From positions 1-30,080 of the IMG/VR virus record IMGVR_UViG_3300042296_000150: a DNA stretch of 30,080 nucleotides. One strand, written 5' to 3'. A program made the position numbers and the translations under genes. Positions 21,667 to 22,657 of the stretch are shown piece after piece (the stretch's first letter is position 1; the number at the start of each line of letters is the position of its first letter). This DNA is from a virus. Below the pieces are notes generated by a model. It ran no database searches, was not told the DNA's origin, and was given only the letters and a program-made list of their open reading frames with translations.

Positions 21667-22283
21667 AACCTATCTTGTTTAATTTGTTGTTTAGGTGCAA
21701 AAGTTTTATCATTTTTAGCCCAAGTTTCTAATCTTCTGCTTATACTCCAAGTTTGCTGCAATTCAAATTTTAGTTTAGTATTGCTTTTATTTGGTTCAGT
21801 CCAATATCCAAAAAAGTCTTTTAGCATATCAATAGAATATTTTTGTTTAAAAGGTATTAATGAATTTTTAAAAGCGAGAGAGCGAATTTCTAAATTCGCC
21901 TTACTATCTTTTTTTATTACATTTACATTTACACTATCATTTACACTTACAGTTGAATTTGTTGAAGTTTGTTGAACAAAATCAACATTTGTTGAATTTG
22001 TTAAAGTTTGTTGATTAAGTTTTGCTAATCTTTTAGCTTCTGCAGATGCTTTACCTGCAATAGACCTACCCTCTTTTGTTTGTTCCCACTTCTTTAAATC
22101 ACGTTTTAATTGTAATTTAATCATCTCAAAAACTAAAGCAATGGAATTATCAATAATAGGGTTTTCATCGTTTACATAAGCAAATAATGTTTTTAAAAGT
22201 AATCCAGCTTGTTCGTTAGTCATTAAATCAATAATAGATTTACTATCTGAATATAATACAAAAGAAGTTTTATCTTTAGCCAT
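21663..22283 (-). CDS. DUF6291-like replication initiation protein
   Basis: This 206-residue protein matches the DUF6291 pattern: SFVLYSDSKSIIDLMTNEQA near the start, LLLKTLFAYVNDENPIIDNS, then MIKLQLKRDLKKWEQTKEGR and SIAGKASAEAKR. A Thr/Asn/Ser/Val-rich linker (about 95-130) joins a second domain with IDMLKDFFGYWTEPNKSNTK and WSISRRLETWAKND, similar to the C-terminus of phage initiators and loaders. It probably binds the origin or loads the ATPase encoded two genes on. Confidence 0.75.
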   Translation of the reverse strand: MAKDKTSFVLYSDSKSIIDLMTNEQAGLLLKTLFAYVNDENPIIDNSIALVFEMIKLQLKRDLKKWEQTKEGRSIAGKASAEAKRLAKLNQQTLTNSTNVDFVQQTSTNSTVSVNDSVNVNVIKKDSKANLEIRSLAFKNSLIPFKQKYSIDMLKDFFGYWTEPNKSNTKLKFELQQTWSISRRLETWAKNDKTFAPKQQIKQDRL

Positions 22284-22482
22284 TGGTTACCTCACTTTCT
22301 AAATAACCAATTTGTTTTTTTAATTCACGTACTAATCTAACTGAAGTAGATTTATCTAAACAAATTAAATTTTCTTGCATATCAATAACAATTTCATTAA
22401 AATTATTAATGAATACTTCTAATTCATTTTGGTCTGTTTGACTTCTTTCAGTTCCTTGAAAAATTAATTTTACGTTTGCCAT
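22276..22482 (-). CDS. Unknown 68-residue protein
   Basis: This 68-residue protein (MANVKLIFQGTERSQTDQNE) has a short strand start then helices ending VRELKKQIGYLESEVTNG, possibly a dimerising coil. It is the first protein gene after the structured RNA and terminator at 22522-22622, so its level would respond to read-through there. It overlaps the DUF6291-like gene by 8 bases. No family recognised. Confidence 0.7.
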   Translation of the reverse strand: MANVKLIFQGTERSQTDQNELEVFINNFNEIVIDMQENLICLDKSTSVRLVRELKKQIGYLESEVTNG

Positions 22483-22521
22483 AACTATAAAGGTTTAAAG
22501 ATAACCTATAACTATTAAATT

Positions 22522-22622
22522 AATAAAAAAATCCCATTCATTTGGTAGTGTTGTGGAACGTACCTCCTGAATAGGATTTTATATAATATTTTAATTTTAC
22601 GTAATGCGTTCCACTTCATTAC
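22522..22622 (-). ncRNA. Structured leader or small RNA with interleaved stems
   Basis: From a TAnnTTTG promoter at 22627-22634, a transcript of about 100 bases would contain GTGGAACG (complement of 22607-22614) pairing with CGTTCCAC (22553-22560), and a 13-base arm (22568-22580) pairing with 22528-22540. The arms alternate (1-2-1-2), so they form either a pseudoknot or two exclusive folds. The second stem has a G-U pair on the minus strand that would be C-A on the plus strand, which favours this orientation. It ends in seven U. The 7-base stretch between arms is GGAGGTA, a Shine-Dalgarno-like sequence. There is no credible ORF inside. Confidence 0.6.
22525..22580 (-). terminator. Terminator at the end of the structured RNA
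   Basis: The 13-base stem described above (22568-22580 with 22528-22540) is followed by TTTTTTTATTAA on the minus strand. The stem encloses 27 bases including one arm of the other stem, so termination may depend on which stem forms first. Confidence 0.65.
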
Positions 22623-22626
22623 TTTG

Positions 22627-22657
22627 CAAATATAATATTTTAATTTAAACCTGTAAA
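22627..22657 (-). promoter_or_regulatory. Promoter of the structured RNA / replication operon
   Basis: The minus-strand -7 box TATATTTG lies at 22627-22634, and TTTA stands in the -33 position 19 bases upstream (22654-22657). The -33 region overlaps the preceding terminator hairpin. Confidence 0.6.

Follow-up and report, generated by a model that had tools for sequence, protein, structure and literature searches.

Kissing-loop leader RNAs form an uncatalogued family in phages of Flavobacteriia

The RNA described here, about 100 bases long, belongs to a large and so far uncatalogued family of 5′-leader RNAs that stand at the head of many early genes in phages of Flavobacteriia; in these RNAs the apical loops of two hairpins, H1 and H2, are complementary to each other. 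It lies on the minus strand of the window, that is, the whole stretch of 30,080 nucleotides analysed (positions 1 to 30,080 of the IMG/VR virus record IMGVR_UViG_3300042296_000150). Because a transcription stop signal stands just before the following gene, the RNA is probably a built-in brake on that gene; judging from its anatomy, we put the probability that it is a cis-acting leader attenuating transcription of the next gene at roughly 0.55.

After the promoter box TATATTTG the minus strand reads CAAA-GUAAUG-AA-GUGGAACG-CAUUAC-linker-AAAAUCCUAUUCA-GGA-GGUA-CGUUCCAC-AACAC-UACC-AAA-UGAAUGGGAUUUU-UUU (Table 1). On this strand GTGGAACG (22614-22607) and CGTTCCAC (22560-22553) are exact complements over 8 bp, and AAAATCCTATTCA (22580-22568) pairs with TGAATGGGATTTT (22540-22528) over 13 bp including one U-G pair. 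The original prediction placed the box, the arms of both pairings, the seven U and GGAGGTA (22567-22561) correctly on the minus strand, and sequence, fold and relatives support the structured RNA that it proposed, with a promoter of its own and an end resembling a terminator. Both of its long stems are real, but it overlooked two further helices: H1 (GTAATG/CATTAC, 22622-22617 with 22606-22601), with one arm of the 8-bp pairing (22614-22607) in its 10-nt loop, and an inner stem, GGTA/TACC, formed by 22564-22561 with 22547-22544, with the other arm (22560-22553) in its loop. Since these two helices enclose both arms, the pairing is a loop-loop (kissing) interaction and the 8 bp are part of a kissing complex. 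The kiss and the H2 terminator stem are compatible in the window RNA. The suggestion that the stems might instead exclude each other is rejected: in relatives the two persist side by side in a kissing complex, and a fold made to contain the 8 bp as a nested helix is about 8 kcal/mol less favourable. On its own, the nested part reaches -23.1 kcal/mol (z = -3.62), a value matched by 1 of 200 dinucleotide shuffles. A 22-base near copy (95%) of the leader promoter occurs on the plus strand of the window at 2803-2824, shortly 5′ of an ORF at 2848 and without a leader RNA behind it.

Table 1. Features of the leader RNA and the gene that follows it in the window
Feature	Position	Strand	Basis or remark
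-7 promoter box, Bacteroidota-type, TATATTTG	22627..22634	-	sequence; TAnnTTTG-type box directly 5′ of the RNA in relatives
Kissing-loop leader RNA, predicted terminated form	22525..22622	-	sequence, fold, relatives
H1 stem 5′ arm GUAAUG	22617..22622	-	pairs with 22601-22606
H1 stem 3′ arm CAUUAC	22601..22606	-	covariation in relatives
Kissing word, H1 apical loop, GUGGAACG	22607..22614	-	pairs with 22553-22560; relatives and unbiased test
A+U-rich linker, recurring AUUAUA element	22581..22600	-	linker composition in 127 relatives
H2 terminator stem 5′ arm	22568..22580	-	covariation in relatives
GGAGGUA: H2 internal loop (GGA) and inner stem 5′ arm (GGUA)	22561..22567	-	relatives
Kissing word, H2 apical loop, CGUUCCAC	22553..22560	-	relatives and unbiased test
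H2 inner stem 3′ arm UACC	22544..22547	-	relatives
H2 terminator stem 3′ arm	22528..22540	-	relatives
U-tract, 7 U	22525..22531	-	sequence; four U inside the H2 stem
Downstream gene, 68-aa protein	22276..22482	-	no Pfam match; RNA upstream in 25/29 IMG/VR loci with a homologue

The starting point for the family was the product of a neighbouring gene (DUF3127/single-strand-binding-type), whose IMG/VR homologues supplied the first relatives; their loci show the same architecture in the same place with different letters. A first scan without a promoter requirement and a second with one indicated the same RNAs. Clear members score at least 32 in the promoter-requiring scan, against a maximum of 27 for first-order Markov sequences of equal total length. 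Over the fetched loci the total is 266 hits, comprising 127 distinct RNAs with 72 kissing words in 199 loci; some of the lowest-scoring among the 127 may be chance matches, and the member counts are not independent tests because the descriptor for most members required a promoter together with a kiss of 6 bp or more. Each member lies directly 3′ of a Bacteroidota-type promoter. Kisses of 7-8 bp are common within a range of 6-10 bp, and A is the most frequent base 5′ of the kissing word in either loop (74/127 and 79/127). Linkers of the 127 relatives are 85% A+T and 56% A, with a median length of 19 nt and A commonest at positions 1-9 after H1. By a loose pattern, some internal loops of H2 resemble tandem G-A pairs (42) or AGUA/GAA bulged-G motifs (12); the H2 of L109:3513-3620 carries such an AGUA/GAA, which as in some other members is the signature of the sarcin-ricin (bulged-G) motif.

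Carriers include the isolated Flavobacterium phages lillamy, morran, hattifnatt and mumin, part of a set of virulent Baltic Sea phages (PMC7077304), as well as Cellulophaga phage phi18:3 and metagenomic phages. In 34 Flavobacterium phage records, GenBank and RefSeq copies counted separately, an endonuclease gene begins with a 96%-identical leader. The covariance model R1, built from the short-loop type without the kiss, also detects the window type. Rfam 15 gave no match at the gathering score for the window and 14 loci and none at E ≤ 1 for six loci, and our search of the literature for kissing loops in combination with phage leaders, Bacteroidetes or Flavobacterium found nothing relevant. 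No leader match was obtained in the distantly related Nonlabens phage P12024S. A role in host genomes was considered and rejected: a covariance search over 397 genomes of one family matched in 2, a weak test in which 10 candidates per genome were scored.

The original prediction looked to relatives for compensatory changes, and these speak strongly in its favour, with two-sided changes in the stems and the kissing helix alike. Alignment A3, with 14 sequences of the window type, has 97.0% paired cells overall, and 21 of its 31 pairs show two-sided changes. By element, the values are 98.8% and 3/6 pairs for the H1 stem, 96.4% and 5/8 for the kissing helix, 95.6% and 9/13 for the H2 terminator stem, and 100% and 4/4 for the H2 inner stem. 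The kissing helix of alignment A2 (short-loop type, 14 sequences) is 100% paired, two-sided changes affecting 5/7 pairs and including G-C to C-G and U-A to A-U. For both subtypes the whole structures score above slid controls and column shuffles, of which 0-1 in 500 reached the same value. GGAGG, on which the original prediction based a Shine-Dalgarno or anti-Shine-Dalgarno decoy, is present in the window as GGAGGTA, but it occurs in only 4 of the 14 close relatives in A3, is absent from the other type and from most relatives, and its bases belong to the inner stem and internal loop. Since GGAGG is not conserved, the decoy idea fails, and we regard it as almost certainly wrong.

Because the aligned members came from a descriptor demanding complementarity, an independent test of the kiss was made by scanning IMG/VR for a promoter and the H1 hairpin GTAGAGT-NNNN-GCTAC only. 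Among the matches listed there were at least 90 distinct sequences with 14 different NNNN words; in 89 of 90 distinct sequences, and for 14 of 14 words, the exact 7-nt complement (CnnnnAC) followed downstream in H2. Words taken from other sequences fitted in 6 of 6574 control trials (0.09%). The sole imperfect kiss among the 90 listed (L200, minus strand, about 555 from the strand start) pairs GUGGACG with CGUCAAC, with one mismatch. Thus the mutual complementarity of the two hairpin loops, maintained through compensatory changes, is established by covariation. Pairs of H1-loop and H2-loop words in relatives are, for example, GUGAGAAG/CUUCUCAC (L005), GUGGACG/CGUCCAC (L009), GUAGGAG/CUCCUAC (L010) and ACUGGUACU/AGUACCAGU (L016). 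In 119 of 127 members the linker is, by a rough span estimate, long enough to reach along the stacked helix; linker length showed no positive correlation with helix length in a crude parse of stem ends. In L042:5439-5553 and L043:4965-5081 the halves are swapped, CGUCUCAC or CUUCUCAC standing in the H1 loop, whereas in L058 and L005 they stand in the H2 loop; judged by these words, an RNA of one such phage could base-pair with that of another.

The RNA also occupies a fixed place between its promoter and the next gene. In 121 of 127 members H2 is followed, at 5-118 nt, by the start of a co-directional ORF with 40 codons or more; in the remaining 6 there is no such ORF within 200 nt of H2, contig ends being a possible cause. 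The distance is 5-27 nt in most, and a second group at 41-53 nt includes the 68-aa gene of the window. Between promoter and first codon stands a terminator-like hairpin with a U-tract: at least 5 T occur in the 8 nt after the stem in 88 of 89 sequences of the unbiased short-loop set, among the matches listed, and some members, such as L053 and L009:3399, have weak U-tracts. In short-loop leaders T makes up 57% of the 10 nt preceding the start codon, whereas the 16 nt before the start of ordinary window genes are 56% A and 32% T, so the U-run is more than the composition of an initiation region. The genes that follow encode homing endonucleases, replication proteins and helicases. Pfam searches of the 121 downstream proteins gave NUMOD4 (27), HNH_3 (27), AP2 (8), GIY-YIG (5), DEAD or ResIII (4) and DUF6291 (4); primases, methylases, KilA-N and AntA proteins occurred once or a few times each. 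Because the unbiased scan used a short-loop pattern, homing endonucleases are probably over-represented.

The 68-aa protein of the window belongs to a family of about 70 aa with the pattern MANVKLIF...LDKxTAIRLVRELKKQI. As an obligate partner of the RNA it was rejected, having no match in 26 of 38 RNA-bearing records. Between the U-tract and its start codon (22483-22524, minus strand) lies a recurring stretch, AATAGTTATAGGTTATCTTTAAACCT, which many relatives carrying this gene have retained and which is able to form a small AGGU/ACCU hairpin. A leader peptide was also considered and rejected: in the window an ATG within H1 starts a frame of 34 codons, but in relatives such as L005 and L058 the frame ends after two codons, and H1 of the GTAG type has no ATG.

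The attenuator listed as an option in the original prediction fits this anatomy, with its U-tract and a start codon just downstream, but falls short of proof. In the mechanism that we propose, transcription would start at or just before H1 from the Bacteroidota-type promoter, and the A-rich linker, which leads to H2, would run along a stacked H1-kiss-H2 helix. The H2 apical loop kisses that of H1, and the base of H2 is followed by the U-tract and usually, a few nucleotides on, by the start codon of an early gene. H2 would then act as an intrinsic terminator; its formation would be linked to the kiss, which may thus tune termination. Many transcripts would end as an RNA of about 100 nt, and the gene would be expressed by regulated read-through only. 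Neither a competing anti-terminator pairing nor a ligand pocket was found, alternative pairing being judged by eye, so a switch is hypothetical. A phage or host factor recognising the kissed shape, or a modified RNA polymerase, seems the most plausible read-through signal, although the diversity of the downstream genes makes a single common signal less than obvious.

A stable 5′ structure or a free small RNA would look similar to such an attenuator. If the terminated molecule of about 100 nt were itself the product, acting in trans, the adjacent gene would be expressed by leaky read-through; the promoter and terminator-like end of each copy, the compact fold and the absence of any known cis switch from our findings would suit this. 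The free small RNA of the original prediction is thus possible as a terminated product, but the next start codon usually lies too close for a promoter of the next gene's own: at 5-27 nt after H2 in most members, there is no room for a second one. The loops, the usual sites of target pairing, are moreover occupied by the internal kiss, and several copies per genome carry different words, so that we consider a trans-acting RNA rather unlikely. Alternatively, the kissed fold might shield the 5′ end of the mRNA, with the U-tract secondary, as H1 lies within a few nucleotides of the expected start site and the kiss ties this 5′ hairpin to H2. The U-tract is, however, as constant as the stems yet would not be needed, and the closeness of H2 to the start codon should interfere with initiation; a stability element therefore appears improbable.

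Two or three leaders are present in many genomes. No kissing word was shared within a genome in 78 pairs (53 distinct word combinations), where 2.9 would be expected (P = 0.036) with words shuffled within two classes, the strict short-loop class alone being too small in numbers. This suggests that cross-pairing is avoided, the marginal significance making it a hint rather than proof; under the attenuator model, leaders of the same genome would be prevented by their differing words from pairing with one another. A bolder and improbable extension treats the kissing word as a key: leaders carrying identical words would cross-pair, words would therefore diverge within a genome and between co-infecting phages, and released RNAs could interfere with the same-word leaders of a rival phage. 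If true, this would be RNA-based exclusion, like plasmid incompatibility.

Transcription attenuators and terminator-type leaders share with the family a promoter, a structured leader and a terminator-like hairpin with U-tract ahead of the start codon. The family differs in having no common leader peptide and no competing anti-terminator that we could find, in its hypervariable loops of which only complementarity is kept, and in placing one module before many unrelated genes. In ColE1, RNA I and RNA II, transcribed from opposite strands, have loops of about 7 nt that pair fully with each other in many orthogonal spellings, whereas the leader holds both loops in one RNA. The packaging RNA of phi29 is a small phage RNA whose two mutually complementary loops pair between molecules in the packaging motor. 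As each leader has two complementary loops able to pair in trans as in cis, it might likewise form dimers or rings. The likeness is limited to loop complementarity: no link of the leaders to packaging genes was seen, and they are often present in several copies per genome, each before a gene and with a terminator-like end. A linker that can span the stacked helix in nearly all members by the rough estimate, the differing words within a genome and a position right before a gene, ill-suited to a ring-forming RNA, make intermolecular action very unlikely. HK022 put, which is not known to have a U-tract terminator of its own, resembles the leader as a cis RNA with two hairpins behind early phage promoters. 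About 70 nt long and with a triplex in the first stem, put counteracts terminators (PMC9378689). The leader might similarly, as a nascent RNA, modify RNA polymerase for read-through of later terminators, its two hairpins lying directly behind early promoters as in put (PMC9378689). In a comparison of anatomy only, however, the leader has kissing loops and an H2 ending in its own U-tract, neither of which is described for put in that paper, from which the words "kissing" and "pseudoknot" are absent, and we hold a put-like role to be quite improbable.

These RNAs add a large, strongly supported structured-RNA family to the phages of Bacteroidota, and nothing similar was found in searchable papers. 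With at least 72 natural spellings of one kissing-loop design, the family is useful for RNA structure work and as a source of orthogonal RNA parts. The control of replication genes and homing endonucleases becomes testable in cultured phage-host pairs (Flavobacterium LMO6/LMO9, Cellulophaga).
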